DNA of 64,000 bases, from NCBI GenBank assembly GCA_902786515.1, contig CADADA010000004.1, positions 1 to 64,000 on the forward strand, written 5' to 3'. The position numbers were made by a program, and so were the translations under genes. The notes under the pieces are model-generated. The model was not told the origin of the DNA and did no database searches. It saw only the letters and a list, made by a program, of their open reading frames with translations. This document shows, one piece after another, positions 1 to 17,852 of the stretch (positions within the stretch are counted from its first letter, which is position 1; every line of letters starts with the position of its first letter). This DNA comes from an uncultured Lachnospiraceae bacterium. Lineage in GTDB: Bacteria > Bacillota > Clostridia > Lachnospirales > Lachnospiraceae.

Positions 1-97
1 GAAGAGGCCAACCAGAGAGAGACTTCAATGTGCATGCATTGCGTCTCGAGTCGGTTGGACTCTTCCTGTTTTTAGACTGTCTTAGTGCGACAGCCCC
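1..97. other. Two hairpins at the window edge, possible end of a mobile element
   Basis: Positions 1-13 pair with 53-65 (12 of 13 positions), and nested inside are a GAGAC/GTCTC stem and a CAATG/CATTG stem. A second hairpin, GACTGTC/GACAGCC with a 7-base loop, sits at 75-95. There is no open reading frame in 1-229, and 98-229 is plain AT-rich sequence where I see nothing else. A strong compound hairpin followed by a short terminal hairpin resembles the 3' edge of an insertion sequence whose body lies outside the window, but I cannot confirm a family. A structured RNA or terminator is the alternative. Confidence 0.35.
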
Positions 98-229: not shown

Positions 230-640
230 TTACAAGGCATAATCTCTAACAGCCTGTACAACACTACTAGAATTCCAGCCAACCATAACATCTGCATTGT
301 TACTAACCTTACTTGGTATTCTTTCTTGACCTCTAGGCTTCACTCCAATAATTGGTTTTCCTAATTCTACTGCTGTATCAATCTCGTAATCTATCCATTC
401 ACTATATGAAACATACATACCTGAAAGAATAATTACACAACTACATAATGATATTCTGTTGCGAAGTTTTTCCTTCAATTCTTTTTTCCCATTAACATCC
501 AAAGGCTTTGTAAGTGGTACCGAATAATCTGTCCAATCAAAATTTTTAGCATCATTAAGCCAACCTTTAATTGTCTGATAATCAGAACTGTAATCCCATG
601 AATGACTAATTAAAATATGATAATCTCTTAAACTTGGCAT
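230..640 (-). CDS. TIR-like (Thoeris ThsB-type, DUF1863) signalling protein
   Basis: This 136-residue protein is a single TIR-like domain of the Thoeris ThsB/DUF1863 kind. It opens with the family signature ISHSWDY at residues 11-17, followed by DYSVP at 38-42. The segment W82-x3-E86 (WIDYE) is where TIR NADases carry their catalytic glutamate. By family knowledge such proteins turn NAD+ into a cyclic ADP-ribose-type signal after phage infection. The start at 640 is chosen because AGGAGG lies seven bases upstream; the alternative ATG at 646 sits directly against that site. It is the last gene of the operon and starts 11 bases past the caspase-like gene, the presumed receiver of the signal. 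Domain identity is strong; the product made and the trigger sensed are inferred. Confidence 0.85.
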   Translation of the reverse strand: MPSLRDYHILISHSWDYSSDYQTIKGWLNDAKNFDWTDYSVPLTKPLDVNGKKELKEKLRNRISLCSCVIILSGMYVSYSEWIDYEIDTAVELGKPIIGVKPRGQERIPSKVSNNADVMVGWNSSSVVQAVRDYAL

Positions 641-651
641 ATTCATTCCTC

Positions 652-1626
652 CTATATTCTTCCTTCTTTTACTAATCTCCAATATTGTTTTCCTACAGCC
701 GTTAATTCACATGCTTTAGAATTCATTGCCGCATAATACATATGTTCTTCTCCAACGGGAACCACTAAGCCAACCCCTTCCAACTTCTGTAAATCTGAAA
801 ATACAGCAGTATTCTCATCCTTTGCATATGGCTCAATGACATTATGAACAACTTCACTTCTATTGGTAGGTTCATATGACGGGTTTAGTTCATATTGATA
901 ATCTTCACTTTTAAAGTAATTCACGATTTTCCTTAATACCGTCATATCAACCTGTGGCTGTACTTCTCTCAATGATGTAAATCTTGTCACATTTGTCTTG
1001 AATACAGGTCTCTGCTCCCATGGACCTAAAGCCTTATCTATAAATGCATAAACTCCTGCAATAGAAATATGTCCTGTCACATCTGCTGCACCACCATTGA
1101 GTGCTTCTATCAACAACGAAGTAAATACACCATGTCCATTTACTTCCATAGAAGTTTGACTATTTCTACTTGCTGTCATAATAGTAACTCCTTCATTAAT
1201 GTTCGCTGTATTTTGTCCATCAGTATTTATACTACCCATAAATCCAGAATAGCAACTATCAAGTATAATTATTCTCTCTTTACATTTTGACTTATTTGCA
1301 ATCGTCAGAATTTCTTGTAATGATACCCCATAGTCATTTTCTGAAAAATCTGGTGTAACTAAATATCCTCCAACTGCATCAATATGTCCATGCCCAGAAT
1401 AATAGAATAGTGCTACATCTGCATCACCTTCAAAACATTTCTCTATTAAGCCTCTCAACTCACCTTTTGTTGCAACATTGTCCTTTTTCCAAACGGAAAA
1501 GTTTGGGTCACCATTTCCATGATTACTTAATAAATCTTTTATTGCCTCTGAATCGTTACAGCAACCTCTAAGCGGACAGGTCGGATAATCATTAATTCCT
1601 ACAACTAATGCTTTTCTTTCACCCAT
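652..1626 (-). CDS. Caspase-like (peptidase C14) protease, probable TIR-activated effector
   Basis: This 324-residue protein has an N-terminal caspase/metacaspase domain (about residues 1-215). The predicted catalytic His79 lies in YYSGHGH and the predicted catalytic Cys125 in LDSCYSGF. The remaining 110 or so residues form a separate C-terminal domain without a motif I recognise; it is the natural candidate for a ligand sensor. In type IV Thoeris a TIR protein makes N7-cADPR, which activates a caspase-like protease that degrades cellular proteins. Gene order and domain types here fit that plan. The start at 1626 follows AAAGGATG, 16 bases after the upstream gene ends. The gene ends in TAG, which overlaps the TIR gene's ribosome binding site and suggests coupled expression. 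Protease identity is strong; the activation mechanism is inferred from family and context. Confidence 0.85.
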   Translation of the reverse strand: MGERKALVVGINDYPTCPLRGCCNDSEAIKDLLSNHGNGDPNFSVWKKDNVATKGELRGLIEKCFEGDADVALFYYSGHGHIDAVGGYLVTPDFSENDYGVSLQEILTIANKSKCKERIIILDSCYSGFMGSINTDGQNTANINEGVTIMTASRNSQTSMEVNGHGVFTSLLIEALNGGAADVTGHISIAGVYAFIDKALGPWEQRPVFKTNVTRFTSLREVQPQVDMTVLRKIVNYFKSEDYQYELNPSYEPTNRSEVVHNVIEPYAKDENTAVFSDLQKLEGVGLVVPVGEEHMYYAAMNSKACELTAVGKQYWRLVKEGRI

Positions 1627-1642
1627 ATCATCATCCTTTCTA

Positions 1643-2107
1643 TTAATGAATACATATCTCATCTGATAAGACAGTATCAAAATTATGTCTTACATTAGCA
1701 GATTCCCAACTGATTCTATCTTCAATGTATGTAAGCAATTCCGTTCCATCCAAATATATATACATCCGTGGTGCAACAAATCCCGGAACATCACGCCTTA
1801 AGTCATCAAGCGAAATAGCTGTAGTATCCTGAAATTCATCAATCTCCATAGCATATCGATATGATTCTTGATATTTTTCAATGCGAGCAATAGCATCCTT
1901 ATCCTCCTTAAATTCTTCTTTCCAATCGGATAAAAGATGTCTCTTGCCTAAGTACACAATTCCTGTAATTGCCTTAACAGGTGCACTGACATACATATAA
2001 GCCATAATAGGCTCGTCCGGAAAGTTTCTTCTATGTTCAAATTTTTTCTTCCCGGATTTAATCTTCTCATACACTTCCGGCTTAAAGCTTAAAAGCATCT
2101 TTCTCAT
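1643..2107 (-). CDS. ASCH (PUA-like) domain protein
   Basis: This 154-residue protein begins LLSFKPEVYEKIKSGKKKFE, and its SGKKKFEHRR matches the GxKxxExR-type signature of ASCH domains. It then continues with the usual strand VSAPVKAITGIVYLG. ASCH proteins are small beta-barrel folds related to PUA. Some bind RNA or modified bases, and one group (YqfB) hydrolyses N4-acetylcytidine. It lies between the methyltransferase-endonuclease and the caspase-like gene with gaps of 13 and 16 bases, so it is almost certainly cotranscribed. The start at 2107 is preferred over 2098 because AAGGCGGTGG lies five bases before it. Whether it reads modified phage DNA, regulates the cassette or has an RNA role cannot be told from sequence. 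Confidence 0.65.
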   Translation of the reverse strand: MRKMLLSFKPEVYEKIKSGKKKFEHRRNFPDEPIMAYMYVSAPVKAITGIVYLGKRHLLSDWKEEFKEDKDAIARIEKYQESYRYAMEIDEFQDTTAISLDDLRRDVPGFVAPRMYIYLDGTELLTYIEDRISWESANVRHNFDTVLSDEICIH

Positions 2108-2120
2108 TAATGCCACCGCC

Positions 2121-4139
2121 TTAATTCCATTTACATTCGATGTTAAGAACTTCCATTGGCATACTGATAAACTGAACATCAAACTTAAGACTTGGCTCAA
2201 CCTTTGTACTTGCATTGTGAATTCTAAAACTAAGCTGCCATCCGTTATCAAGATACATTTCTACAGTATTATCACTATCTGGTTTGAATTCAAGAGCAAC
2301 AAGTCTCGTAGGTAACTTAACAATAGGTACTGTAATTGCTGATAACTTATTCTTTGCTGGCTTATTCAAAGTATCATGCATATTAAATGTATGAATCATC
2401 GTAAGTCTCTTACTATCCTTGCTCACAACTTTATAATAATCTTCAATACCAATCAGATATTCAATCATTTTTCTTGGCATCGTGTTATCTTTCTCATTTG
2501 CTCGATTTATTTCATCAATGAATGCCTGCAATAAAGGAATATACACTTTCTGACCCTTATCCTCTATTTCAGACCATTTTGTACCATTCTCTTTTTCCTG
2601 TTTCAATATATTAAAGATTGGTTCTACAGCATCCCAATACTCATCAGAACATGGCATTTCAAACCACTCATTTCCAAAATCCAACTTATGGCTTAATCTG
2701 CTGTGCTTTACAGCATCGTGGTTATGTTTAATACTCAAGCCAACCTCCCATTCGATATCCTTTCTCTTGATAACGATGTCTCTAACATCACCTTTTACCC
2801 CCTGACCATCTTTTTGAAACTCAAGGGTAAGTTCATCATCATCAATTTCAGACATTCTTGGTTCAAGTTCTAACACTGTATCAATGGCAGCACCTGCTGA
2901 TATCATAAATGTCTCCTGTATTTCTTCATCCATAAGAGACCATGCTTTTTCATTTGCCATCAAACTAGAATTCTCAACAATTCTTGTTTTTCTTAACTCT
3001 GCCAATGCTTTATATAAAGTTTGAATCCAAGCATACTCGTATGCTCTTCCCTGATCATTACTCTTTGTACTCACTTTCTTCTCATTGACCTCCTTAGCAT
3101 CAATAACCTCTCTGTCGATTTCAACAGAAGAGCCTTTTCCTTCAAGATACATCTTTATTGCTACAGCTACCTCATATGCCAAATTCACAGGGACTGCATT
3201 ACCAATCATCTTATATGCAGTATTTGTATCATTGTAAATGAATTTAAAATCATCCGGGAACCCCTGTACTCTAGCAACTTCACGAATAGTCATTCTTCTA
3301 TAAAGGTGTTCTTTTCCTTCTACAAATCTACAATCATTAGTTCCAACCTTTACCATCTTAGGTGCCTGTGGGTGTAACTGACATTGACGTCCAGATGCTT
3401 GAACTGTAAACGCCTGCTCATCCCATCCCTTTACACGATTACGGCTCATAAAAATAGGTGAATAAGCACCTGTGAAATATTCATTATTATTTATTGCATC
3501 CGGATTATGGCGATTCTTTTCTCCAGAAGGTACAGCAGTTTCTTGCAAATCCCAAATAACATCACGCAATGTAATCTTCTTTGAATCATCTTTAGTAGAA
3601 CCTTTAGGAAAACCAAAGTCTATCTTTAAATCTTTTCTAAATCCTATGTAAAATACTCTCTTTCGCTCTTCTGCAACACCATAATCCTTGGCATTAACCA
3701 ATGTGAACGAAACATCATATCCTGCCTCATCAAATAATTCTAAAATATTTTGAACGGCAATAGAATGTCTATCCGCAAGCATTCCACTAACATTTTCCGC
3801 TAAAAAGAACTTTGGTTGAAATTCCTTTAATATTCTGATATAGTCAAAAAACAACTGACCTCTCGCATCCTTAATACCCTTAAGGGAGCCAGCTTCTGAC
3901 CATGACTGACATGGCGGTCCGCCAATGATTCCATCTACTTCTCCATCTATGTATTGAGCAATATCATCTTTTGTGACTTGCCTAATATCACCTTCAATTA
4001 AATGTGTATTAGGATGGTTAACTTTAAAAGTTTCCCATATGGTTTTGTCAAATTCATTCGCCACAGGAATATTAAATCCTGCTCTTTCAAAGCCTAAATC
4101 AAGTCCTCCACATCCACTAAACAAGCTAATTACATTCAT
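2121..4139 (-). CDS. Fused HaeIII-type C5-cytosine methyltransferase and restriction endonuclease
   Basis: This 672-residue protein joins two enzymes. Residues 1-335 are a DNA cytosine-C5 methyltransferase with the SAM site ([11 protein letters not shown]), the catalytic PPCQS motif (Cys77), the ENV motif (115-117) and a target-recognition region ([17 protein letters not shown]) very like M.HaeIII. Residues from about 355 on resemble the HaeIII family endonuclease: a start near QGRAYEYA, then a candidate PD-(D/E)xK-like core with GDVRDIV and [19 protein letters not shown]. Both halves therefore predict GGCC as target. The start at 4139 has AAGGAG nine bases upstream and lies 14 bases inside the preceding gene. 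Methyltransferase and nuclease of this family are usually separate genes, so the fusion is unusual. Enzyme families are confident; specificity is inferred by similarity. Confidence 0.88.
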
Positions 4140-4311
4140 CGGCTTTCGCTCCTTCATTCTCATTCTTTTTGATTATTTTCGCCGCCTCTATAAGTGCTGT
4201 CCTACGTACAAATTCACTATAAGAAGCATATGCCTCTAATCTTGCAGCCTGCTTGAATTTATCTAATTCTTCTTCGCTAACACGTATGCTTATTGATATT
4301 GATTTTTTCAT
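4126..4311 (-). CDS. Small ribbon-helix-helix DNA-binding protein
   Basis: This 61-residue protein begins [20 protein letters not shown] and continues with [11 protein letters not shown], the strand-helix-helix pattern of ribbon-helix-helix (Arc/MetJ/CopG-like) proteins. Proteins of this kind act as small repressors, antitoxins or relaxosome accessory factors. It is the first gene of the defence operon and overlaps the next gene by 14 bases. Its promoter carries a doubled TTGACA box, so autoregulation of the operon, in the manner of restriction-modification control proteins, is a reasonable guess. The start at 4311 is chosen for GGGAGGTG eight bases upstream; a longer in-frame extension to 4350 has no such site. 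The lysine- and glutamate-rich tail after residue 45 has no recognised role. Confidence 0.7.
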
Positions 4312-4331
4312 TTTAGGGCACCTCCCACTAT

Positions 4332-4366
4332 CTAATATTCTACTCTGCAAGGTGTGTCAATGTCAA
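4332..4366 (-). promoter_or_regulatory. Promoter of the defence operon with a doubled -35 box
   Basis: On the minus strand two TTGACA hexamers stand head to tail (4361-4366 and 4355-4360). The first is 18 bases from TAGAAT (4337-4342), the second 17 bases from TATTAG (4332-4337). Both are good sigma-A-type promoters with a short leader before the start at 4311. The direct repeat could also be an operator for the ribbon-helix-helix protein encoded first in the operon. Confidence 0.7.
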
Positions 4367-4430: not shown

Positions 4431-4454
4431 GTAAGCGTCAATTGAAACGCACCT
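4431..4454. repeat. IS66 left terminal inverted repeat
   Basis: The first 12 bases, GTAAGCGTCAAT, are identical to the first 12 at the other end read inward. The remaining positions match only partly. Confidence 0.8.
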
Positions 4455-4484
4455 ACAAAAAAACCAGACATAGGTTATAATAAC

Positions 4485-6047
4485 TTATGCCAGGATTTTT
4501 CTTTTCCTACATTTGTCTGGTATTTCTTCTGACCAGGGTACCAAAGTGCTCACATCCATGCCGGATATGATACTCTCGAATAAAAACTCTAGATATTTTT
4601 GTGGAATAAGTTCATTTGCTATCGCTGTTTGAATAATACTGTATATCAGTGTTGATGCATCAGCACCGTTAGGTGTATTTGAAAACAGCCAGTTAGATCT
4701 GCCGATAACAAATGATTTAATACTCTGCTCCGCAAGATTATTACTTAACTGTATTCTTCCGTCCAACAGAAAACTGCACAGATATTCTTTCTATTTCAAT
4801 GCATAGGCAATAGCCTTCCCCATCAAACTCTGGGGAAGGATTTCACTTTCTATATCTGATATCCAGTTGTAAAAACTATCTGTTACTGCTTTAGATTTTT
4901 CAGCCCGCAGCTCCAGCCTTTCTTCAAAAGAAAGCCCTTTTTTATCTGCTTCCTTTTCGATAGCAAACAGCTTTCTTATATATTCTTCCCACTGTCTGGC
5001 ATACTCGTTATCCCTGTTTGCCACATGAGCTTCATGGAATTTTCTCTTTGCATGGACAAGGCATCCGCATAAAGTAATTCCATCAAGTTTTTTATAACCC
5101 GCGTATCCATCACAATGAAGATATTTTCCCTGCCAGTTTTTCAGAAATGTCTGTGCATAAGCTCCATTTCTTCCGCTGGTATATTCATATACCATTACCG
5201 GATGCTTATTATATAATGATGTCCTGCATATCCAGACATATGATTTGGCGGTGGCAGGTCTTCCCGGTTCATTCAATACCTCAAGAACCGTCTCATCTGC
5301 ATGAAGCAATTCTTCCTTCATAAGATTTGATATCAGTTCATTGTACAGAGGTTTTAAAAGCTCTGCTCCTTTTATAATACAGTTGGAAAGGTTCTGTCTC
5401 GAAAGTTCTATTCCAAGTCTTTTAAATTCCTGTTCCTGCCTGTACAATGGCAGTGCAAGTGTATACTTCTGGTTCATTATATATGCCATAAGACTTGGTG
5501 ATACGAAACTTTTGGGTATTAAAGCTTTTGGATGTGGTGCTTTTTTGATATATCCCGCTTCTCCATTTTTGTCACAATTTCTACAGCTGTATAAATATGT
5601 GACATGTTCCACTACCTTTATTTCTGCCGGAATTACTACCAGTTCCTTTCGCACTTCTTTTTTCATGACGGTAAGTGTTTCACCACACACATCGCATATG
5701 AGTTCATCATCATCCAGTTTGTATTCCTTTACTTCAACAGGAAGGGATTCTAATTTTTTACCACGTTTTGATTTTTTTCTTTTATGCTCTGCAATTATTA
5801 TACTTTCATCAGGTTCTTTGGCAATCGGTTCTCTCAATGCTTCGGCTTCATTGAAAAGATCAAAAAGAGAAACCTGACCATCGCATGCTTTTTCAGATGA
5901 CCTGCCAAATTTCTCTTTTGCTCTCAACTTAAGCTGTTCCTCATACCAGCTGTTCAATTTCTGAAGAGACTGTATCGTCTCATTATTTTTCCTGATTACA
6001 GACTTTAAAGATTCAATCTCTGCCTTTAATTCCTCTACTGTATTCAC
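4485..6047 (-). pseudogene. tnpC: IS66 transposase tnpC, interrupted by an in-frame amber codon
   Basis: The first 418 codons hold an N-terminal coiled coil, a zinc-binding segment (CDVCG near 118-122, CRNC near 155-158) and two catalytic aspartates, Asp251 in LLHADETV and Asp313 in LHCDGYAGY. Codon 419 (4791-4793) is TAG, and the same frame then continues for about 100 codons to 4485. The downstream part contains SNNLAEQSIK, whose glutamate (codon 440) is the third acidic residue of the IS66 DDE triad. Truncation at the amber codon would therefore remove catalysis. The start is GTG with AAGGAGG nine bases upstream. TAG terminates ordinary genes nearby, so readthrough is unlikely to be the normal state. 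Confidence 0.88.
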
Positions 6048-6122
6048 CTTTAAAGTCCTCCTTCAATCACTGAATTTTTATGGTTCTATTATACCATAAA
6101 AACACTGTTAAATCCACAGTAT

Positions 6123-6473
6123 TTAATGTTTTTTCCATACTTCACTGCGTTTTATTTTCTGTGTTATACCAGGAGCCAGAAGTATATTTTTCAGCTCATC
6201 CATCGTAAGTTTCATTGTCTCATCAGTGGCATTGATTTCCGGCTAGATAACTCGCCCACGTTCAATTCTCTTGAAATGAATCCAGAATCCATTATCCTCC
6301 CACACCAGCCGTTTTATTCTGTCACGGCTTCTGTTACAGAATGCGAATATAATATTTTCACGCGGATCCAGTTTGAATTTTGAAGAAATAATTTCGGACA
6401 ATCCATTTATACTTTTTCTCATATCTGTGGCGCCACACGCAAGTATAATCCTATAATCCCTGTAATTAAACAT
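6123..6473 (-). pseudogene. tnpB: IS66 accessory protein tnpB, interrupted by an in-frame amber codon
   Basis: The reading frame encodes the IS66 Orf2 protein (start MFNYRDYRIILACGATDMRK), with the typical NRSRDRIKRLVWEDNGFW segment. At codon 77 a TAG (6243-6245) stands where homologues usually have tryptophan (RGRVxWPE). The frame then continues for 39 more codons to a TAA at 6123, giving the family's usual 116 or so residues. The start overlaps the end of tnpA by 8 bases, suggesting coupling. Its role in transposition is essential in related elements but biochemically undefined. Confidence 0.85.
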
Positions 6474-6789
6474 CCGTTGTTCTCACCGCCTTTAACACAT
6501 CCTTAAAAAAAGATATATCCGTAAGCTCTGTGATGGTGATTTTGAGCCCATCGTATTCAATCTGCACATTAGATTTACTGTTGATTTCATTTGTCATACC
6601 GCTAATTTCCATAAAGGAATAGTTTTCATTATTCGTTCTGCATTTTTTAGAATTGTGATGAAGCCAGTTATTCAGCGTCGAAGTAGGTATACCATGCTTC
6701 CGACACCAGCTATTCTTCGACATACCGCTTTCAACAAAATCAGCAACCAGATGTTCTTTTTCACTTTTTGTACGAAAAACTCTTTTCAA
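6466..6789 (-). CDS. tnpA: IS66 accessory protein tnpA
   Basis: This 107-residue protein has an N-terminal helix-turn-helix (about residues 10-45, with SGMSKNSWCRKHGIPTSTLN) like other IS66 Orf1 proteins that probably bind the element's ends. It is the only one of the three transposition genes that is intact. A TTG start at 6789 is preferred because AGGAGG lies eight bases upstream; the in-frame ATG at 6822 lies before that site and lacks one of its own. The gene lies just inside the right inverted repeat. Confidence 0.8.
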   Translation of the reverse strand: MKRVFRTKSEKEHLVADFVESGMSKNSWCRKHGIPTSTLNNWLHHNSKKCRTNNENYSFMEISGMTNEINSKSNVQIEYDGLKITITELTDISFFKDVLKAVRTTDV

Positions 6790-6841
6790 AAAATACACCT
6801 CCTTTTGAGATGCATTATACACGGTTTTATATCTGATTGTT

Positions 6842-6865
6842 AGGCGTACTTGGATTGACGCTTAC
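6842..6865. repeat. IS66 right terminal inverted repeat
   Basis: Read inward from 6865 on the minus strand it begins GTAAGCGTCAAT, matching the left end at 4431. The outside bases CGTCAATC mirror the GATTGACG just inside the end, so a short chance palindrome surrounds the boundary. Confidence 0.8.
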
Positions 6866-7050: not shown

Positions 7051-7422
7051 TCAAATATCCCACAAATCAATTCTATTTGTTATAAAACTTATATGATCAC
7101 CATCATTTAAATCATGTGGTAACTTTGTTTCATCAATAGTAATTAAAAATCCATTCACTTTTATTAAGCCTTGGGTCTTTTTAATAATTTCACCAAATAT
7201 TAAATATTTAAAATTATCATCTAAGGCTTCTATTTTCTCTGTATTGTTATTATTTTTCTGAATATTTTCTTCACTTAATGAATTTAAACTATCACTTAAT
7301 TGATCATTATATTGATAATTACAACAATCACAAAATGCTCTAATGTCATTATTTCCATCAGAAACAATCACTATTGCTTCCTTTGACATCTCATCCATCC
7401 AAAAAATATTTTTAATATACAT
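7051..7422 (-). CDS. Probable immunity protein for the Rhs toxin
   Basis: I do not recognise the family of this 123-residue, acidic, cytoplasmic-looking protein, which has no signal peptide or membrane segment. It starts three bases after the stop of the giant Rhs gene and is the only gene between it and the terminator. That is the standard place for the immunity protein of a polymorphic toxin. Residues 30-65 are low-complexity (Asn-, Ser- and Glu-rich); the C-terminal part (about 70-123) looks compact and beta-rich. The ribosome binding site before 7422 is weak, so an internal ATG (MSKEAIVIV) is also possible. The role rests on position, not on homology. Confidence 0.6.
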   Translation of the reverse strand: MYIKNIFWMDEMSKEAIVIVSDGNNDIRAFCDCCNYQYNDQLSDSLNSLSEENIQKNNNNTEKIEALDDNFKYLIFGEIIKKTQGLIKVNGFLITIDETKLPHDLNDGDHISFITNRIDLWDI

Positions 7423-7425
7423 AAT

Positions 7426-10400
7426 TTATCTACCAAATCCTAAACTAGGAGCTTTTTTCATCAATTCACCAACACTTTTTATATGAAATGTGGTTATATC
7501 GCCTGTTTTCCTATCAAGACCGACAAAGCCAAAATTTTTTCCTTTAATAAATGAAACATATCCATTCAATTCAGGAACAAACGTGCCATTATTTATTATA
7601 TAATTTGCATCATCCAAATAATTAGCTTTACTATAATTATTTACTTCTAAATTTGCAATTATTTGATCTTTATGCTTGTCATAATGTTCATCAAATGCAT
7701 TCTCATCTTTAAAATTTTTACAATTATTATGCACAAGAACATTTCCTGCATAATACGTATGCAATCCATCTATCTCAAGGTTATATACTTCTATCCTCTC
7801 AGAAAGCTTTTCAACGATTACTTCTTCAACGAACAACTCTCTTTCATCAATCGAATGAAGTTTATCACCTTTTTCAAGATTTGATGCAGCTACCCATGCT
7901 TCGTCTTTGCCATTCTCAACAAAGAATGGATGATACATTGTAGTCTTAATCTCACTGCCATCAGAAAGTTTTACATGCACGAGTGTATCCGTTTTTGTAA
8001 CCGATACATCTTTTACCTTGCACGCTTCATTTTCACCAGTCTGAGTGTTGTAAGCGTATATTTCATCTCCGGCTTTAATGTCAGATATCTTTTTACTTCC
8101 ATCCGTTGTCTCTACCAATGTGTCTTTTGTAAAACACTGACAGCTAAATGTAAATATATCAACTGCAATTCTAAGTGTTGCAATTAAGATTTTTTCAGGA
8201 TCTTTGGCTTCTATTGCATCTACCAGTTCATCAACGTCGGATACAACTCCAAATATTTTTAGTAAATATGTTGCAGCTTCACCTACAATAGCTTTTGCAA
8301 AACAAGAAATCAATGCCTGGGTTACCATTCCCTTAGCTATAGCTAACGCTACATCCAATATACTTGCCTCGCCACATAGCACTGCTCTTATCTGAACACC
8401 TACATCATAAGCCGTTAATGCCATGTTAACCCATGACATTATTCTCTTAATATCAAGATAAGCTCTTGTCGCACTAAGTATATTATTAATTGACTGTGCA
8501 ACGCTACACTCTGCAAGCGAGAAATATCCCGATGGGTCAGTGTTCATTACAGGGTTTGCATTTGCATACAGGTATTTGTGTAAACTTACAGGATTATCAA
8601 GTGTTCCCGCATATGAATCCATAGAAATAAATGTTCCTGTCTGAGGATTCATATATCTTGCTCTCAGATAATAAAGTCCTGTGCTCTCGTTGTACTGTTC
8701 ACCTGTGTAAAGATAATCATTATCCGTATTTCCGGTCTTCTTAAGAAGATTACCGTAAGCATCATATGTGTATGTATCACATATTACTACACTGTTTTCA
8801 CTTGTATTTTGGACAAGTGCAGTTACAGAACCGTGAACATCCTGAATGTAGAGTTTCTTATTAACTGAAACTTCTCCGGCTTCATTTGTACCGACAATAT
8901 CAGTACTCAAAAGCTCTGTTCCACGTGTGTAATACTTACTTACATCCAGACACTCATCACCATCTGAATTATATACTTTTTTAAGTTCTAATGCAACCTG
9001 TGTCAGTTCATCGTATGTATCATTAAGATAATATACCTTTTCCTCTTCGCCTGTCTGCTTAGAAATTCTGTTTCCTTCATAGTCATATTCATAACTTTCT
9101 ATGGTTACATTGCTTCCTTCGCTTATTGTAGCTGTTAAAAGTTTGTTCTGTGAACTGTAAGTATAAGCTTTTGTTATACTTCCTGACTCTGAAATAAGGT
9201 TTCCGTTATCATCGTAAGAATACTCAACAGATTCGTCTTCTGCAGTTCTTGCTGATAATAACTGATTCAACTCATTATACGTGTATGATGTAGTTCCTTC
9301 TTTAATTTCATCTGCATAACCATCTACATCTCCGGCTATAACAGTATTCTTTGAAGTTCTGTTACTTACACTGTCATACTCATATTCATTTATTATACTT
9401 CCTGCAAATGCATTGAATTTTGATAAAACAACTTTACCATCTGCATCAGCTGTTATGACATCATCAAATGCAACATCTTCTTTTATACTGATTACTTCTT
9501 TTTCTAATCTTAGTAATTCATCGTACTTATACTGGTAACTGATAATTCTTGCATTAGCGTCATCTGCAGAATTTCTTACAACCTCTACAGTTTTTGTTCT
9601 TTCTCCTGCATCACCATATGAATAATCATAATACATAAGTACATTGCTGTCTTTATCTGTAACAGTCTGATTAATCACACGTGAGCATACATCATATCTG
9701 TATCTTACACTCAGACCGCCTTCGTGCTTAACTAATGTTCTGTTACCTATTGCATCATATTCGTAAAGAGTTGCAACACCATCATGAGCTACTACTCTTA
9801 CAACACGATCCATTAAGTCATAATCATAAGTTGTCCCAGCCACATCAACACCATTCACATTATGTGTTACGGATTTGATATCATCACTGCTTGTATAAGT
9901 ATATTTAGTTAATCCCAAATCATACGTTTTTTTAGATGACATTCTTCCAAAATCATCATATGTATATGCAATTTCACCGTGACTGTCATTTACTTTTGAT
10001 AATCTTCCAAAATCATCATATGTAAAATCTGTGTTACCATCGCTGCAACTGAATCTTGTAAGATATCCATTTTCATCATATACATAAGTATTCTGATTTC
10101 CTTTATAATCCTTGTATCCAACAACTTTACCATATGAATCATATGTATACTCAGCTGTTTTTCCTGCTGCATTAACTAATTTCGTTACTCTTCCGTCTGC
10201 ATCATATACATATTTTGTTTCATTACCTTTTGCATCAGTAACCTTAACAAGTTCATTTGTCTCATCGTATTCATACTTATAACTGTTACCGCATGCATCA
10301 ATTACCTCAGTAAGTAAATCGACACCATTATAGATATATGAAGTTTCATGGTTTTCCCTGTCAATCTTTTTAACTACCCTGTTTCTTGCATCATAAACCA

Positions 10401-13400
10401 GTTTCTCTTTGGTTCCGTCAGGATAGACAAGACCTGTCTGATTCCCATTTAAATCATATTCATACTCGAAAACATTGCCCAATGCATCTGTAAATTTAGT
10501 TAATAATGAACGTTCGTTATACTCAAATTTAGAGATATTTCCATATGCATCTTCTATCTTTGTGTTTCTATTCATACTGTCATATGAATACTTAATGACA
10601 CCGCCTTCAACATTTGTTACTGATATGATGTTTCCATTTGCATCGTATTTGTAATCTTCACTGCTTCCGTCAGCAAATGTTTTTTTGATAAGTCTGTTAA
10701 TCTTATCATATGTCATCGTAACTGTAACACCCATTCTGTCTCTGGCTGTTATATTGTTACCATTCTTATCGTATGTAAACTCTTCAAATGTTCCATCTGA
10801 ATATGTTATCTTTGTAAGATTTGACTGATTGTCATATTCATAATTTGTTCTGATTCCATCAGCCGTAATCTCTGCTGTTTTATTATTTCTGTAATCATAT
10901 TCATATGTTGTAACAACACCTGAATTGCTAATTTCGGAAATCACATTTCCGGCAACGTCATATACATATCTTGATGTATATTCTTCCTTATTTCCATTCT
11001 CATTTGTTCTTGCAACTGTAACTCCAACACATCTGCCGTTTTCATCATAATCATACTTAGTTGTGTTTCCGTTACCATCTTCCATAGAGGTAAGGTTTCC
11101 GTCTGCGTCATACTTAAGCTTATGTACAGTACCGATTTCATCTGCTACAGATGATAATTTACCATCCTTTTCATATGTAAAATCTGTTGAATTACCCAAT
11201 GAATCTTCTGCTTTAGTAAGATTTCCTTTACTGTCATAGTTCATTGAAGCCATATTCTTACCTGCAAATTTTATATCTGTTACAGTATTTAATTCATTAT
11301 AGGTTAACTCCTCTACCGTTCCGTCTGCTGTTGTAAGACTCTTAAGGTTATTATCAGAATCATATTTAAAATATGTTGTGTTACCATTTGCATCTGTTGA
11401 TGATAATTTATTATTATTTTTATCATATGTGTTTGTAGTAACATTTCCTAAAGCATCTACCGTCTTCAAAATATTTCCGTTATCATCATATGTATATACA
11501 GTAGGATTACCCATTCTGTCTCTGATAACTTCTGTCTTTGAATCAACATCATGCTCATATTCTGTTCTGTTTCCGTCTGCATCTATTGTTGCAACAAGTC
11601 TTCCTTCGTCATCATATTCATTTCTGGCTACAGCAATTCCGGAAGGATCAATAATATCAATGAGGTTGTGATTATTATCATACGTATATGTTACATTTCT
11701 TCCGGCCTTATCAATATTCATGATAAGATTATCATTTTCATCATATACATATGACATTGAATCTATCTCATTGCCATCTTTGTCTTTTTCAGTTGCTTTT
11801 GTAATTCTGCCATTCTTATCCCTTGTAAAATCTATACCCATTCCGTTAGAATGTTTAAATCCATTTTTAGAAACTGTAATGGTATTTCCATTAGTATCTA
11901 CTGCTTTTGTCAAACCATATTTCGGAGATATATATAGTTTTGTTCCATCTTCCTTTGTCAAAATATATGAATGATTTTCTGACATCTCAAGATTGTCAAA
12001 TAAAAGGAAGTTATTATATACCAATGCATAGTTTGAACCTTCGAGTTCCAGTTTTACCTTTTTGTTCGTTACACATACAAAATTTAGATTTACATCATAA
12101 ATTGGTACTAATGCTCTTCTTTGAGGAGAGAATGATACTTTAAATCTGTCACATGTACCATCACCATATGAAACCGTAATGTCATGGCTGTAGGTTTCAA
12201 CCATTTCATATTTTGTACTGAAGGCTATACCTGACTGAACCATTTCATATCCTGTAGCAATATCATGGCTCTCAGTAAGTTTCACACTGTTAAGTCCTAA
12301 TGTCCATCCTGTTCCAAAATCTTCTGATGCTTTATTTCTGCTATCATAATTTCTTGTTACAGAAAGTGGAATTCCCGCAACATTTGTATTTATGTCGGTA
12401 AATCCGATAGCCATGTTTCCGACCTTCCAATCACCGTTAACATTTACACATCTCTCTGTTCTAACAATATTACCACCATTATCAACAGCAGTTAAACGAA
12501 TAGAATAACTTCCGTTCATAAGCATTGTTTTATCTAATGTTGCAAGTGTAACATTTTCAATGTTATTATATCCTTTTGCAAGTTCAGTATAGTTTTCTGT
12601 TCCGTTTAACTTATATTCCAATACGTAATAAGCTAATCCTTCTTCATCTTTTACTGTTCCAACTATATCTGTCTTTATGCCTAAATCCGAATCCGGCTCA
12701 GGTGAAATAAGTTCGGCAACAGGTGCATTTTTATCACTCTTATCGTAATATCTTACACTCTTTTCTACCTTTTTGATTTCACCATCAATTTCTGCTGACA
12801 AAGTAACTGTCAAAAGTCCAGGCTCAGAATTATTAATATTAGCAATTCTTCCGTTTAGTGAAACCTCACCCTTATCACTTGTCACAGATACATTCTTAGC
12901 ATTTTTCGGAAATGTTATGTAACCATATACAACATTTCCGGCATCGGTTGCAGTAGTAGACAACGTGAGATTCAAGTCTCCATAATACTTATTATCTTCT
13001 TCAATATTACTGCCACCTCCACCATTGTTTTTCTTATCATCTATTGTTCCGTTTTTTGTAACAGTAACAATATAAGATGCTTTTGTCATATTGCCTGCTT
13101 CGTCTTCTGCCGTAACATATACAACATAATCTCCAGGCAATATTTCTCCGTAGGTATATGATGCAATATCAGAATCGATAATTGATGTATTACCTTTCTT
13201 AATTAAAACTTCATTTTCTACGACTCCATCATCATTTTTCTTACCGGTGATTACGTTATATTCTTTAAGATTATCGTCAGTAATCGAACCGCTAAGTGAA
13301 ATATGTAAACCTTTATCATCTGTAGACGCTTTAATGTTTCCTGCGATTACAGGAGGTGTAATGTCATCATTTCTTTTAACAACATTTTCTGAAGATCCTG

Positions 13401-16400
13401 CTTCATAAATAAATCCGCCTCTTGATATACATGAATTTTCTTCACTGTCCCAAGCGTAAAGTTCTAATATATACTCTCCGTCAGACAAATCAGAGGTACT
13501 TATACTTGCAATTTCTGAATGGTCAATTGCTTCTGTTCCGCTGACAAGCACAGTTTTTGAATCTTCATTATCTTTTCTGTACAGAGTAAGATTATATCCT
13601 TCTAATTTTTCATTATCACTGACAGAAGCCGTAATAACAACCTCATCATTTTCAGAATCTAAAGATATTGTCTCAATTGCACATTCCGGTGGTATCCTGT
13701 CTTTTACTTCTTTTCTGACAGTTATCACCATATAAACAGTTGATGAAAGACCAGCTTTATCTTTAGCTGTAATTGTGTATTTATAATATCCTTCTTCAAG
13801 CGAATCAACATTAATTGTATCAATTACATCTTCTATGACTTCTTCATTTGATGTCTTAACAACCTCAACATCTGATTCTTCGTTTGTTTCAACATTTAAC
13901 TTTGACTTTGTAATGGTATATGAATCCAAAGCTTTATTATCTTTGATAGTCCCAACTATATCCGTATCACCTGAAATAGAACCATCCTTAGGACTGTCTA
14001 TTATAATTTCAGGCGGAGTCTTGTCAGTATTATCAATAACTGTAACTTCTTCACTCTTACTTGATGCATTTCCTGAAAGGTCTGTAGCCGTTACTGTCAC
14101 ATTTAATTTACAAGCCTCATTTGCAGTTACAATAAATCTTCCATAATTGTTACTTACAACTTCATCGTTACATTTTATTACAAAATCACTTACTCCGTTA
14201 TCATCCTCAGCATATGCTTCTACTGAAAACTCTTCTCCAACTTCCAATAAAGTCTTACTTACAATAAGTGTTACCTCCGGAGCAGTATTATCTTCCGGCT
14301 TTACATATACCCTGGCATCGTTTGTATTAATTGTTCTCACACAAGGTCTTGAATATGCACCTTCTATATCCTTTGATACATATTTTACAATGTAGATTTT
14401 TCCCATTTCCACCTCTGACGGGAATCTTCCTTCTGTCCATCCGGTCTCGTTTAATTCTTTATAATAGAATTTTTCTTCTCTAATTCCTTTTTGAGAATCA
14501 GAAGGATGATCTGCATCACAAGAATCATATGCAACATTTACAATACATTTCTTTCCGTCTGTTGACTGCATAAGGTTAATACTCATATCTGCCACCGGTC
14601 TGTTGTGGGCAAGAATAAGTTTCTTATACTCGTCAGTATCGGCATACTTTATGTAATCCTTTAAATTCTCATTTCCATGTGTAGGGTCATCCGATACTAT
14701 ATGAGTTATCTTATATGCACCTGAATTCTCAAATAATGTTACAGGCTCATTAGTTACAAACTCATCACGGGTTCCGTTTCCTTCGTTAAATACTGATGAA
14801 TCATATTCATATTTCCACTCATCAGTTCCAACTTCATCATTCTCAGGATCCGAATATGTGTCAGAATATGAGACCGGCTCATCTGTTGTTATTGTATCAT
14901 ATATCTTGTAATCCTTTGAAAAAACATCATTTTTTATTCTTGATACAATCTGATTAACAGCTTTAACAACCGTTATATCATCCTCACCGTTTTCTTCATC
15001 TTCTGCTTTTTGTGTTAACTGAATATTTTCTCCAGATCCATCAATAACATTCAGAAGTCTGTTGTATGAATCAATTGACTTGTCATTACCTATACCAAAA
15101 AACATTACATCATTTGACATAAGTGCCGCCGCAACATCAGAAGTCTTTCCGTCCTCTGAAAGTTCCGGAATTACCTCACCACTTAAGTTAATCACATAAT
15201 GATTAGTACCCGGCAGCCATTCATGCTCATTAACAACATCACTAAGACTCTTTCCCGTTACAGTCTGCATTGTAATATTTTTAAAAGTAAAATACGACTG
15301 CTGACTACAACAATGACTTCCGTGACTGATAATCGGTCCGTATCCGTATGCATCTACTCCATCATCCGGAAGTACATACTCATTAACCAGCAATTCACCG
15401 TCATCATATACTGTTATAGTGTTTTTATCTACTATTATTCTAAAATGATGGTTTGCATAAAGATTCTTTATATTAAATGTCTTTAAACATTTACCGTATC
15501 TTTCAACATTACCGTATCTGGTTTCTCTGAAAACATCTAACTTAGTCCTGTTAATCTGAACAATCTTTAATCCCCTTTGAGTAACCAGCACGCAGTATCC
15601 CTGTAAATAGTTTTCTTCATCATTTACAACAGTATTAAAGAGGAATCCTCCACCTTCCATACTGTGCCAGTCGGTTTTATCTCTCTGAAGATCAAAATCA
15701 AATATTTTCTTATTCGCATTACTATCATCCACATAAAGAAAATCTTTCAGAGCATCATAGCTGTATCCAAGCATCTTTATGTCTTTTCCATCATAAATAA
15801 TATGCTTATCAATCGTCGGCAGATATACGTCCTTATAATTATAATGATCATACTCTTTCCATGCAAAAGTATCTGTTGCATTTAATGATGACGTCTCAAC
15901 AGTTGTAACTCTTGCATCAATTCCATTCTCTTTTAAAAATTCTTTAACCTTTGCACTTTCAGCAGCATAATCACTTAATTCATCACTTCCGGCGCTTCCT
16001 ATAGTGAATATTATATCCGCCATTTTGCTTTTCTCTATCTTCATTGCAGATGACGGTGCCTGATTTACTATTTCAAATTCTTTTTCTATCTGACCTTTTA
16101 AAAATACAGACTCATCTATCAATGATAAAATTGTATCATCAAATTTTTCCTGAATATCAAGTGTTATTTTATACTTACCAACATTTGATAATTCATACGT
16201 AAATGCCAGTTCATCAGAGATTTCATTTAATGCATCCAAATCGTAATCATGCGTATCAATGACTTCTGTTTCATCAAAGTTTCCATCATTATTTTCATCA
16301 TAATACAGTTTGTAATTCTTATATATTATATAATCTCCTAATTCTGATACAGAACCATCTGTAATCTTTATTTCAGCCTGTCCATCACTATTTCTTACAA

Positions 16401-17664
16401 ACTTATAATCATCTGCTGCTTCGCCTTCAACTGCAGTCATTTCAAATCCGGCAACAGGAGCCTCATCATCAACTATTGTAATAATTTCTTCTGCCGGAAA
16501 TTCATCATAACCATCAGTTACCATTGCATTTATTCTGTAGGTTCCGCTCTCTTTAAACAACAATTCTCTATGAGTATTGGTTGTCTTACTGTCATCAACC
16601 AGACACACCTCATCCATTGTTGCAATAACATTTCCGTCACTGTCTATCTTATTAATATCAAGAGTGGTTTCATCCATAAGCAGATACTCAGCCTCACCTT
16701 GTATATCAAGATCAATATCTATCTTACGATTTACCTTTTTGTTACCTGTAGCTATGACAGATACCGAATCAATCTGCGGAATATGTCTTCTTGGTACATA
16801 AGGACATACGTATCCCATATCATTCCAGCCTTTTACCTTTACACAGTTATTACCGGCTTTGTAATCACTGTACTTCATCATTACAGAATCGTTCCAGAGA
16901 TATTCATCATTACCTCTGAAAAATCTAAGTTCTGTAGCACCTTCATCTTCTTTTGTAACCACATATCTGAAAACTTGTGTTTCAGGCGAATCACTAAGTC
17001 TTATAGGCACTAATTTTTCTTTATCCGCTTCGCTGATTTTTATATCATTTCCATTGTTATCCTTTTTCGAATACTCTGTAAAATTAACATAAAAAACTGC
17101 ATTTCCTTTTTCCCAGTTAAATCCACCGTTTTCATCTGTAAATTCATAGAAATCGAGATAAACAACATCTCCTTCTTTGAAATAATCATACGTTACACTG
17201 GGTTTACCGTCCCAATAACCATGTTCAGGCACTGTCGCATGGTATGTGCTCTTCCATGTGGAATAATCGTTTCTGTTACTTCCTCTTCCACCTGCACTCC
17301 ACGAATTCCACTGTTTCTTTTTATCAGGGCTTAATCTGTTAAAAGTAAAATTATAAGCCTTTGCTCTGATTCTAAGACTCCATGTCCTTGAATCTTCCTT
17401 TTTCATAGTGTAATAATCATGTCCGTTAGTATTATCCACAGCCTGAATAACCGCATTATTATTACCAATCCATCCACTATCTGTATCATCTCTGAAATAG
17501 ATAGTTGTAAATGCATCCGGAACTTCTGACGCATATGCCGTCTCCTCCGGGAAACTAAAACTAATACTTGTAACAAACATTACAAATGCCAGGATAACAC
17601 TTATAGGTCTCCTGACTTTTTTTGACATAAAAAAAGAGAATACTTTCCCAATTCTTGTGTTCAT
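7426..17664 (-). CDS. Giant secreted Rhs/YD-repeat polymorphic toxin with HINT domain
   Basis: The 3412-residue protein begins with a long Sec signal (basic MSKKVRRP, a hydrophobic stretch, then a probable cut near AYASE). A CBM26-like starch-binding-type module follows (residues 50-150), then tandem Ig/cadherin-like modules to about 1750. Two of these have PPEIIIDSPKDG and PVAELISPEPDS motifs. Residues 1750-3010 are tens of YD repeats closing with the Rhs core (LYYLRARYMNPQTGTFISMD). Next come hydrophobic helices (3030-3170), a HINT domain (about 3177-3315, from CFTKDTLVE to VLVHNNC) and a 97-residue toxin tail. The YD shell normally encloses the toxin and the HINT domain is thought to release it. 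The start at 17664 has AAAGGAG eight bases upstream. This resembles WapA-type contact toxins of Gram-positive bacteria. Confidence 0.85.
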   Translation of the reverse strand: MNTRIGKVFSFFMSKKVRRPISVILAFVMFVTSISFSFPEETAYASEVPDAFTTIYFRDDTDSGWIGNNNAVIQAVDNTNGHDYYTMKKEDSRTWSLRIRAKAYNFTFNRLSPDKKKQWNSWSAGGRGSNRNDYSTWKSTYHATVPEHGYWDGKPSVTYDYFKEGDVVYLDFYEFTDENGGFNWEKGNAVFYVNFTEYSKKDNNGNDIKISEADKEKLVPIRLSDSPETQVFRYVVTKEDEGATELRFFRGNDEYLWNDSVMMKYSDYKAGNNCVKVKGWNDMGYVCPYVPRRHIPQIDSVSVIATGNKKVNRKIDIDLDIQGEAEYLLMDETTLDINKIDSDGNVIATMDEVCLVDDSKTTNTHRELLFKESGTYRINAMVTDGYDEFPAEEIITIVDDEAPVAGFEMTAVEGEAADDYKFVRNSDGQAEIKITDGSVSELGDYIIYKNYKLYYDENNDGNFDETEVIDTHDYDLDALNEISDELAFTYELSNVGKYKITLDIQEKFDDTILSLIDESVFLKGQIEKEFEIVNQAPSSAMKIEKSKMADIIFTIGSAGSDELSDYAAESAKVKEFLKENGIDARVTTVETSSLNATDTFAWKEYDHYNYKDVYLPTIDKHIIYDGKDIKMLGYSYDALKDFLYVDDSNANKKIFDFDLQRDKTDWHSMEGGGFLFNTVVNDEENYLQGYCVLVTQRGLKIVQINRTKLDVFRETRYGNVERYGKCLKTFNIKNLYANHHFRIIVDKNTITVYDDGELLVNEYVLPDDGVDAYGYGPIISHGSHCCSQQSYFTFKNITMQTVTGKSLSDVVNEHEWLPGTNHYVINLSGEVIPELSEDGKTSDVAAALMSNDVMFFGIGNDKSIDSYNRLLNVIDGSGENIQLTQKAEDEENGEDDITVVKAVNQIVSRIKNDVFSKDYKIYDTITTDEPVSYSDTYSDPENDEVGTDEWKYEYDSSVFNEGNGTRDEFVTNEPVTLFENSGAYKITHIVSDDPTHGNENLKDYIKYADTDEYKKLILAHNRPVADMSINLMQSTDGKKCIVNVAYDSCDADHPSDSQKGIREEKFYYKELNETGWTEGRFPSEVEMGKIYIVKYVSKDIEGAYSRPCVRTINTNDARVYVKPEDNTAPEVTLIVSKTLLEVGEEFSVEAYAEDDNGVSDFVIKCNDEVVSNNYGRFIVTANEACKLNVTVTATDLSGNASSKSEEVTVIDNTDKTPPEIIIDSPKDGSISGDTDIVGTIKDNKALDSYTITKSKLNVETNEESDVEVVKTSNEEVIEDVIDTINVDSLEEGYYKYTITAKDKAGLSSTVYMVITVRKEVKDRIPPECAIETISLDSENDEVVITASVSDNEKLEGYNLTLYRKDNEDSKTVLVSGTEAIDHSEIASISTSDLSDGEYILELYAWDSEENSCISRGGFIYEAGSSENVVKRNDDITPPVIAGNIKASTDDKGLHISLSGSITDDNLKEYNVITGKKNDDGVVENEVLIKKGNTSIIDSDIASYTYGEILPGDYVVYVTAEDEAGNMTKASYIVTVTKNGTIDDKKNNGGGGSNIEEDNKYYGDLNLTLSTTATDAGNVVYGYITFPKNAKNVSVTSDKGEVSLNGRIANINNSEPGLLTVTLSAEIDGEIKKVEKSVRYYDKSDKNAPVAELISPEPDSDLGIKTDIVGTVKDEEGLAYYVLEYKLNGTENYTELAKGYNNIENVTLATLDKTMLMNGSYSIRLTAVDNGGNIVRTERCVNVNGDWKVGNMAIGFTDINTNVAGIPLSVTRNYDSRNKASEDFGTGWTLGLNSVKLTESHDIATGYEMVQSGIAFSTKYEMVETYSHDITVSYGDGTCDRFKVSFSPQRRALVPIYDVNLNFVCVTNKKVKLELEGSNYALVYNNFLLFDNLEMSENHSYILTKEDGTKLYISPKYGLTKAVDTNGNTITVSKNGFKHSNGMGIDFTRDKNGRITKATEKDKDGNEIDSMSYVYDENDNLIMNIDKAGRNVTYTYDNNHNLIDIIDPSGIAVARNEYDDEGRLVATIDADGNRTEYEHDVDSKTEVIRDRMGNPTVYTYDDNGNILKTVDALGNVTTNTYDKNNNKLSSTDANGNTTYFKYDSDNNLKSLTTADGTVEELTYNELNTVTDIKFAGKNMASMNYDSKGNLTKAEDSLGNSTDFTYEKDGKLSSVADEIGTVHKLKYDADGNLTSMEDGNGNTTKYDYDENGRCVGVTVARTNENGNKEEYTSRYVYDVAGNVISEISNSGVVTTYEYDYRNNKTAEITADGIRTNYEYDNQSNLTKITYSDGTFEEFTYDKNGNNITARDRMGVTVTMTYDKINRLIKKTFADGSSEDYKYDANGNIISVTNVEGGVIKYSYDSMNRNTKIEDAYGNISKFEYNERSLLTKFTDALGNVFEYEYDLNGNQTGLVYPDGTKEKLVYDARNRVVKKIDRENHETSYIYNGVDLLTEVIDACGNSYKYEYDETNELVKVTDAKGNETKYVYDADGRVTKLVNAAGKTAEYTYDSYGKVVGYKDYKGNQNTYVYDENGYLTRFSCSDGNTDFTYDDFGRLSKVNDSHGEIAYTYDDFGRMSSKKTYDLGLTKYTYTSSDDIKSVTHNVNGVDVAGTTYDYDLMDRVVRVVAHDGVATLYEYDAIGNRTLVKHEGGLSVRYRYDVCSRVINQTVTDKDSNVLMYYDYSYGDAGERTKTVEVVRNSADDANARIISYQYKYDELLRLEKEVISIKEDVAFDDVITADADGKVVLSKFNAFAGSIINEYEYDSVSNRTSKNTVIAGDVDGYADEIKEGTTSYTYNELNQLLSARTAEDESVEYSYDDNGNLISESGSITKAYTYSSQNKLLTATISEGSNVTIESYEYDYEGNRISKQTGEEEKVYYLNDTYDELTQVALELKKVYNSDGDECLDVSKYYTRGTELLSTDIVGTNEAGEVSVNKKLYIQDVHGSVTALVQNTSENSVVICDTYTYDAYGNLLKKTGNTDNDYLYTGEQYNESTGLYYLRARYMNPQTGTFISMDSYAGTLDNPVSLHKYLYANANPVMNTDPSGYFSLAECSVAQSINNILSATRAYLDIKRIMSWVNMALTAYDVGVQIRAVLCGEASILDVALAIAKGMVTQALISCFAKAIVGEAATYLLKIFGVVSDVDELVDAIEAKDPEKILIATLRIAVDIFTFSCQCFTKDTLVETTDGSKKISDIKAGDEIYAYNTQTGENEACKVKDVSVTKTDTLVHVKLSDGSEIKTTMYHPFFVENGKDEAWVAASNLEKGDKLHSIDERELFVEEVIVEKLSERIEVYNLEIDGLHTYYAGNVLVHNNCKNFKDENAFDEHYDKHKDQIIANLEVNNYSKANYLDDANYIINNGTFVPELNGYVSFIKGKNFGFVGLDRKTGDITTFHIKSVGELMKKAPSLGFGR

Positions 17665-17852
17665 TTTTCTTTCTCCTTTAAAAATATTCTTCAGGGACAA
17701 ATCACAAGACTTACTTCTAAGTACACTCTATAATAAACTTTTTAATTGTCACATAAAAATTATATCTTAATAAATAATTATACGGCTCAATATAATACTA
17801 TTAAAATAACCTTTATATCCAATATGATAATGTCAAATCAGAGGATATACCT

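Follow-up and report, generated by a model that had tools for sequence, protein, structure and literature searches.

In the genome of an uncultured Lachnospiraceae bacterium, a gene encoding a TIR-domain protein directly follows a gene encoding a caspase-like protease, which raises the questions of whether the two constitute an anti-phage system of the type IV Thoeris kind and by which signal one protein would act on the other. The window considered here is the whole stretch of 64,000 nucleotides that was analysed, taken from the start of its contig, and the initial annotation had placed the pair at 230-1626.

The locus and its neighbourhood

This placement was borne out: both genes are intact and lie on the minus strand, with the TIR gene downstream of the caspase gene and an 11 nt spacer between them. 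By eye, a ribosome-binding-like AGGAGG precedes the ATG of the TIR gene, and plausible ribosome-binding sites were recognized for both genes of the pair. The features of the locus are as follows.

1..97, strand not assigned: end of a repeated, probably mobile, element; the contig starts here
230..640, minus strand: TIR-domain protein of the ThsB type, 136 aa, ATG start, catalytic Glu86 (PF08937, PADLOC ThsB)
652..1626, minus strand: caspase-like protease, 324 aa, ATG start, stop at 652-654, His79/Cys125 (PF00656)
655..981, minus strand: residues 216-324 of the caspase, forming its C-terminal domain, a putative signal sensor with weak winged-helix likeness
1643..2107 (approximate, start chosen by us), minus strand: ASCH-like protein (PADLOC PDC-M11B, 4e-12; Pfam ASCH below cut-off)
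2121..4163, minus strand: 680-aa fusion of a HaeIII-type methyltransferase with a HaeIII-type endonuclease, preceding the pair in the apparent operon
4126..4350, minus strand: small ribbon-helix-helix-like (RHH) protein, head of the apparent operon
4337..4366, minus strand: promoter-like site TTGACA-18-TAGAAT at the operon head, a consensus match only
4431..6865, strand not assigned: insertion element upstream of the operon, with inverted ends at 4431-4455 and 6841-6865, which we take by eye to be IS66-like

The genes for the RHH protein, the HaeIII fusion, the ASCH-like protein, the caspase and the TIR protein form a five-gene run on the minus strand with one promoter-like site in front, such sites being found 23 times in the region against 19.7 expected in shuffles. 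The end of the repeated element lies ~130 bases past the TIR stop, and its sequence recurs where three further contigs in this genome end. No second TIR gene was found beside it within 3.5 kb on contigs C78 and C6 and within 3 kb on C81 (reading frames judged by eye). A search of the genome for other TIRs, with PF08937 and one TIR of class C (see below) as queries, found two on contig C58 and one, 14.6 kb into the contig, on C6, and none of them stands beside the element. The two on C58 form part of a separate type I Thoeris-like locus (L138 235-2766) with a SIR2-SLOG ThsA of 478 aa and two ThsB TIRs, which adjoins AAA ATPase and RloB-like genes (named by eye). Elsewhere in the window, positions 7051-17700 encode an RHS-repeat protein of 3424 aa that carries a pretoxin HINT domain close to the C-terminal end; the small gene after it has no Pfam match and could encode an immunity protein.

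An RHH gene, a methyltransferase–endonuclease fusion (86% identical) and an ASCH gene also occur on contig C52 of this genome, with no caspase or TIR gene in the 8.5 kb read there. The restriction module is therefore separable from the pair, and the proposal that the pair needs the module was rejected, as the C52 paralogue stands without it. The ASCH-like protein is judged, in view of this paralogue, to belong probably to the restriction module and not to the TIR–caspase pair. The 680-aa fusion itself is present twice in this genome (in the window and at G000:C52:15017-17047, L127) and once in genome G199 (83%). Elsewhere among the matching genomes listed, the methyltransferase typically stops matching at about residue 340, in a frame of ~330-400 aa, and any matched endonuclease is separate.

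The caspase-like protease and its C-terminal domain

The window caspase matches PF00656 (E 8e-20) in a Pfam profile search and the 'caspase' model of PADLOC (2e-17). The sole addition from NCBIfam is NF047832, which likens the protein to the EACC1-associated caspases, but at 95.6 bits against a cut-off of 140. An AlphaFold2 model built on an alignment of 60 relatives reached a pLDDT of 93.5 and a pTM of 0.87. Residues 1-222 of this model take the caspase fold, with MALT1 and animal caspases ranking first in structure comparison (MALT1: Z 23.4, rmsd 3.0, 200 residues aligned, 18% identity). The sequence relatives of solved structure are metacaspases and MALT1, which cover the protease part only; beyond that part, the sequence search returned no solved relative apart from a marginal match to a WD-40 protein. 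As modelled, the protein is thus predicted to have the caspase/paracaspase fold with a His/Cys dyad, and the residues proposed in the initial annotation are in place, His79 within SGHGH and Cys125 within DSCYSG.

Conservation was assessed in 92 caspase loci, comprising the window, L003-L005, seven plasmid loci that we chose out of 40 (L006-L012), the 80 best of at least 460 relatives from the genome_contigs collection, and L094; L093, with no caspase frame over the threshold, was left out. Of the 80 genome_contigs loci, A2 takes 60 and A3 58, by our choice. Both His79 and Cys125 are kept in 92/92 aligned caspases (the window and one duplicate counted, and the set consisting mostly of the best 80 of at least 460 relatives), so that a loss of the pair in close homologues, which would have spoken against the assignment, was not seen. 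The conservation of His79 is partly by construction, because the GHG motif was in the scan pattern, whereas Cys125 was not. A second, distant caspase-family gene of the same genome (G000:C75:4120-4824) has neither the C-terminal domain nor a TIR gene in its flanks.

The C-terminal domain of ~110 residues that had been noticed in the protease is real. Modelled alone it reached a pLDDT of 92.3, it is of high confidence also within the whole caspase, and it is present in 91/92 aligned caspases, the exception being a broken gene. The mean frequency of the top residue in the 92-row alignment is 0.59 over residues 206-324 and 0.62 over residues 1-205, and Arg220, Phe238, Leu247, Glu252, Leu279, Ala299, Leu308, Gly312 and Tyr315 are near-invariant in the domain. 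Structure prediction and Foldseek, proposed as checks of both proteins, made the caspase fold clear and left the domain with a best Z of 6.3 and, when its model was searched alone, no Foldseek match at E <= 0.001. The weak structural matches are mostly winged-helix regulators, and the winged-helix (MarR/PadR-like) likeness of the modelled domain, which points to no ligand, is suggestive at best. Sequence comparison with PDB chains gave nothing like the domain (best E 0.25, an unrelated chain) and no Pfam family matches the window's copy; among 59 copies of the domain, nine Pfam families match one or two members each at E 0.01-0.1.

Scanned for on its own, the domain was found in 8/398 genomes of the phylum, that of the window included, and in 14 of 17 pattern matches on viral contigs. 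All 22 of these loci (8 genomes and 14 viral, window included) carry a caspase and a neighbouring TIR, although one caspase is cut by a contig end and some of the viral loci are near-copies of one another. As a control, PF00656 caspases were collected from 117 genomes of the phylum, giving 16 loci, 3 with the C-terminal domain and 13 without; a neighbouring TIR was seen beside 3/3 domain-bearing and 0/13 domain-less caspases, in a view of ~1.5 kb per side at most and with five of the 13 negatives too distant for a phmmer match to the window caspase. By our arithmetic, the chance of such a split at random is 1 in 560. The control adds negatives and not positives, because its three positives (window, G502 and G507) are already among the 22. 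The domain tracks with the TIR and therefore behaves as expected of a receptor for the TIR product.

Judged from these sequences, the domain is the constant part of this caspase family across bacteria and archaea. Although it had initially been described as an unrecognised sensor domain, it is the standard domain of the family and not a special one. Two further candidates were rejected: that only this locus has the domain (it is family-wide in the relatives) and that other effectors also make use of it (every one of the 22 matches in genomes and viral contigs is a caspase, with phyla other than that of the window sampled unevenly). Among 44 plasmid records with the domain, H85 and H86 deviate, apparently as broken copies. 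The statement that such systems are little sampled in gut Firmicutes does not agree with ~13 of the 80 best relatives belonging, by their titles, to gut-type Clostridia, nor with the presence of the caspase or its C-terminal domain in 4/392 genomes of the order and 8/398 of the phylum (own genome included).

TIR partners and their exchange

The TIR protein of the window matches PF08937 ThsB_TIR (E 6e-18, 65.5 bits against a cut-off of 21.2) and the ThsB model of PADLOC (3e-16). Its motifs are as first described, ISHSWDY forming residues 11-17 and Glu86 lying within WIDYE, and the position of Glu86 is occupied by E in 103/103 aligned TIR-like proteins, the window's included. The TIR partners of the caspases fall into three sequence classes: A, B (ThsB-type, to which that of the window belongs) and C (usually a second TIR; L085, whose TIR matches at 2e-11 and is joined to Sel1 repeats, is counted here). 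The sequence around the caspase holds a TIR of one of these classes at 84/92 loci, window included, that of L049 only on the opposite strand, and a same-strand TIR lies within 1.3 kb at 82/92. The caspase and TIR genes are adjacent in most loci, with overlaps of a few bases in many. The order caspase then TIR, as in the window, is seen in 21/72 scored loci and the reverse in 51/72, a duplicate and a broken locus being excluded.

Six Chitinophagales loci (L042, L043, L045, L047, L052 and L058) instead have a ~360-aa protein downstream of the caspase. Three of these proteins were tested with profiles: that of L042 has clear TIR_2 and FGE-sulfatase matches (Pfam), that of L058 an FGE-sulfatase match and a TIR_2 match just below the cut-off (E 7e-6), and that of L052 a weak TIR_2 match below the cut-off (E 2e-4) and no FGE match. 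The proteins of L042 and L058 begin with a TIR-like part and end with an FGE-sulfatase-like domain, and by eye they probably also have a membrane stretch; L043 was grouped with them by eye, and L045 and L047 by size and position. The L054 locus is cut by the end of its contig, and L034 has a caspase with no detectable TIR in its flanks. Taken across these genomes, the evidence supports a TIR–caspase pairing that is real, conserved and specific.

The trees of the two proteins are in conflict. The closest TIRs found to that of the window are those of L041 (79% identical) and L039 (75%), whereas the caspases of these loci share only 49% and 51% identity with that of the window; the caspases of L013 and L014 are 69% and 70% identical. 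The window caspase falls into a clade of four with L003, L013 and L014 (support 100/99), in which the TIRs are of class B in L003, of classes A and C in L013 and of class C in L014, where a class B TIR sits further off, behind an apparent transposase. Forcing the caspases of the window, L039 and L041 together was rejected (p-AU 6e-55), as was forcing together the TIRs of the window, L003 and L014 (p-AU 1e-33), or the window TIR with L014 alone (p-AU 2e-4) or with L003 alone (p-AU 6e-11); these values are not strict, because the groups were named after the trees had been seen, but the conflict is nonetheless large. On the 90-row caspase tree, a quick tree with SH-aLRT support only from which L036 (a repeat of L004) and L094 (broken) were excluded, the A/B partner label needs at least 15 changes, and the starred branches force at least 10 for label A against the rest. 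The labels refer to the same-strand, 1.3-kb neighbourhood, so that L014 is labelled C despite its class B TIR. Given this conflict, exchange between lineages is the likeliest reading: the TIR and the caspase of the window were probably exchanged, with the signal maker swapped in, and TIR partners have been exchanged over a constant caspase.

The TIR subfamily of the window also serves other effectors. An order-wide TIR search gave matches in 5/392 genomes, with the partners being a caspase (the window's own genome and G160), ThsA (G125), SLATT/DUF4231 (G248) and 8xMP (G266). The TIR of G125, from the same order, is 51% identical to the window's and lies 19 nt behind a SIR2-SLOG ThsA. On ten viral contigs, the TIR partners were three SLATT, two 8xMP, one TPR-S and one caspase, with two TIRs lacking a clear partner and one match partial, and a search of the phylum with the TIR alignment gave 8/398 genomes, the loci of which include caspase-linked, ThsA-linked and unassigned TIRs. 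The TIR tree was drawn from a chosen set of 53 rows with one very long row (L164). The 11-row set around the window TIR (97/91) contains four SLATT-linked, three caspase-linked and one ThsA-linked TIR, one TPR-S-linked TIR on a long, unsure branch and two with no assigned partner; a single clade of all caspase-linked TIRs in the subfamily is rejected (p-AU 1e-5, for groups named after the trees were seen). The 8xMP gene (octameric membrane protein, PF24838) lies directly beside ThsB-type TIRs at L161 4408-4929, L165 3561-4007 and L144 1017-1475, which may represent a further TIR effector pairing, and a gene for a TPR-S sensor protein lies directly upstream of a ThsB-type TIR on a viral contig (L164 2707-4411).

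Since the subfamily stands beside ThsA, SLATT, 8xMP and TPR-S as well, the TIR alone does not fix the signal. According to published work, the SIR2-SLOG ThsA is activated by 2' and 3'cADPR (PMC11204291), and the type IV Thoeris caspase answers N7-cADPR (PMC12847820). N7-cADPR is a plausible signal of the window pair and, being what TIR–caspase systems are reported to use, comes first among the known candidates; another cADPR isomer is possible. Either the product specificity of the TIRs shifts readily, or the pool shares more of its signal than has been assumed.

Likely mode of action and its alternatives

The founding type IV Thoeris TIR–caspase pair reportedly comes from Pseudomonas (Rousset and colleagues, Science, 2025), and a 2026 paper reportedly deals with a phage sponge that counters TIR–caspase signalling. 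The plan of type IV Thoeris was recognized from the first in the window, and the part of it that concerns the pairing stands: the TIR gene adjoins the caspase-like protease gene, both with intact catalytic residues, and the pairing is conserved. The resemblance is to the published descriptions; the pair is known here from its genes, and it is likened to the founding system by description, not by sequence. With type I Thoeris the window shares the ThsB-type TIR (PF08937 above cut-off) but not the SIR2-SLOG ThsA, in place of which the readable side holds the caspase, the ASCH-like protein, the HaeIII fusion and the RHH protein. TIR–SLATT pairs are reported in firmicute phages (PMC9503650). In the loci found here, TIRs that belong to the same subfamily as that of the window, with 52-58% identity to it, adjoin DUF4231/SLATT genes, and the effector there is a two-transmembrane protein and not a protease. 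Twelve type IV Thoeris operons are counted downstream of capK/capS in one paper. A search of open-licence papers found no description of the sensor-domain fold or of TIR re-pairing, and either may well be in print. The window pair is intact and best read as a fairly typical new member of a defence class that was described only recently.

With a probability of roughly 0.85, the pair would be a two-protein abortive-infection (anti-phage) system of the TIR–caspase kind, similar to type IV Thoeris. We infer the following course for its biochemistry. The TIR protein would sense a phage component or state, and its Glu86 active site would turn NAD+ into a cyclic ADP-ribose-type signal. This signal would bind residues 216-324 of the caspase, its constant C-terminal domain, and switch on the His79/Cys125 protease, which would degrade cell proteins and stop phage growth. 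The genes and their active-site residues are intact, and the C-terminal domain is closely coupled to caspase and TIR, with exceptions such as L034.

The same architecture may work with another signal, the TIR making 2'cADPR, 3'cADPR or another ADP-ribose derivative to which the caspase C-terminal domain is tuned. Such an arrangement, which we consider rather unlikely, is favoured by the mostly non-caspase effectors that neighbour the 11-row set of the window TIR, by the scattering of caspase-linked TIRs over more than one clade and by the activation of SIR2-SLOG ThsA by 2' and 3'cADPR noted above. However, a few residues can change the product specificity of TIRs, and the conservation of the sensor domain across a set mixing all TIR classes fits one common signal. 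A bolder version is doubtful: TIRs from one pool may be freely re-plugged among caspase, SIR2-SLOG, SLATT and 8xMP effectors and, if their product is conserved, the C-terminal domain may have a sensor fold not described before and serve a signal different from N7-cADPR (2'/3'cADPR or a new ADP-ribose derivative), which would make the Thoeris types interchangeable outputs of one alarm. That the TIR instead contacts the caspase directly, as a scaffold or allosteric partner and with no diffusible molecule, would suit the adjacent and often overlapping genes. It is nevertheless very unlikely in view of the catalytic Glu kept in all 103 aligned TIR-like proteins and of the three TIR classes and TIR fusions that serve one caspase family with discordant trees, which would make a co-evolving interface hard and a shared small molecule easy.

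Two further readings assign the pair a different role. As a working part of a HaeIII-type restriction operon, for instance as a fail-safe when restriction fails, it would explain why the five genes share a strand and one promoter-like site and are closely spaced or overlap, but the 86% identical module of the same genome does without the pair. The other caspase loci searched hold no ASCH relative, one marginal HaeIII endonuclease match (E 4e-4) and a cytosine methylase relative at three loci (L024, L028 and L092), which leaves this role highly improbable. Equally little is to be expected of the reverse direction, in which the C-terminal domain lets the caspase sense infection, whereupon the protease cleaves or releases the TIR to kill by draining NAD+: a constant C-terminal domain and a TIR that varies in class and number fit the TIR as infection sensor and the caspase as common effector, even though NAD+-depleting effectors exist among bacterial TIRs (PMC12847820).

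Under the favoured reading of the pair as a TIR–caspase abortive-infection system, its significance lies in comparison. Bacterial signalling from TIR proteins to caspases parallels the innate immunity of animals and plants, and the comparison of these loci makes it testable whether one shared signal permits the partners to be swapped or whether specificity changes at each swap. The proteins for such a test are named by the conflict between the trees, namely the pairs of the window, L039 and L041, the TIR–ThsA pair of L142 and the TIR–SLATT pairs of L141 and L158.
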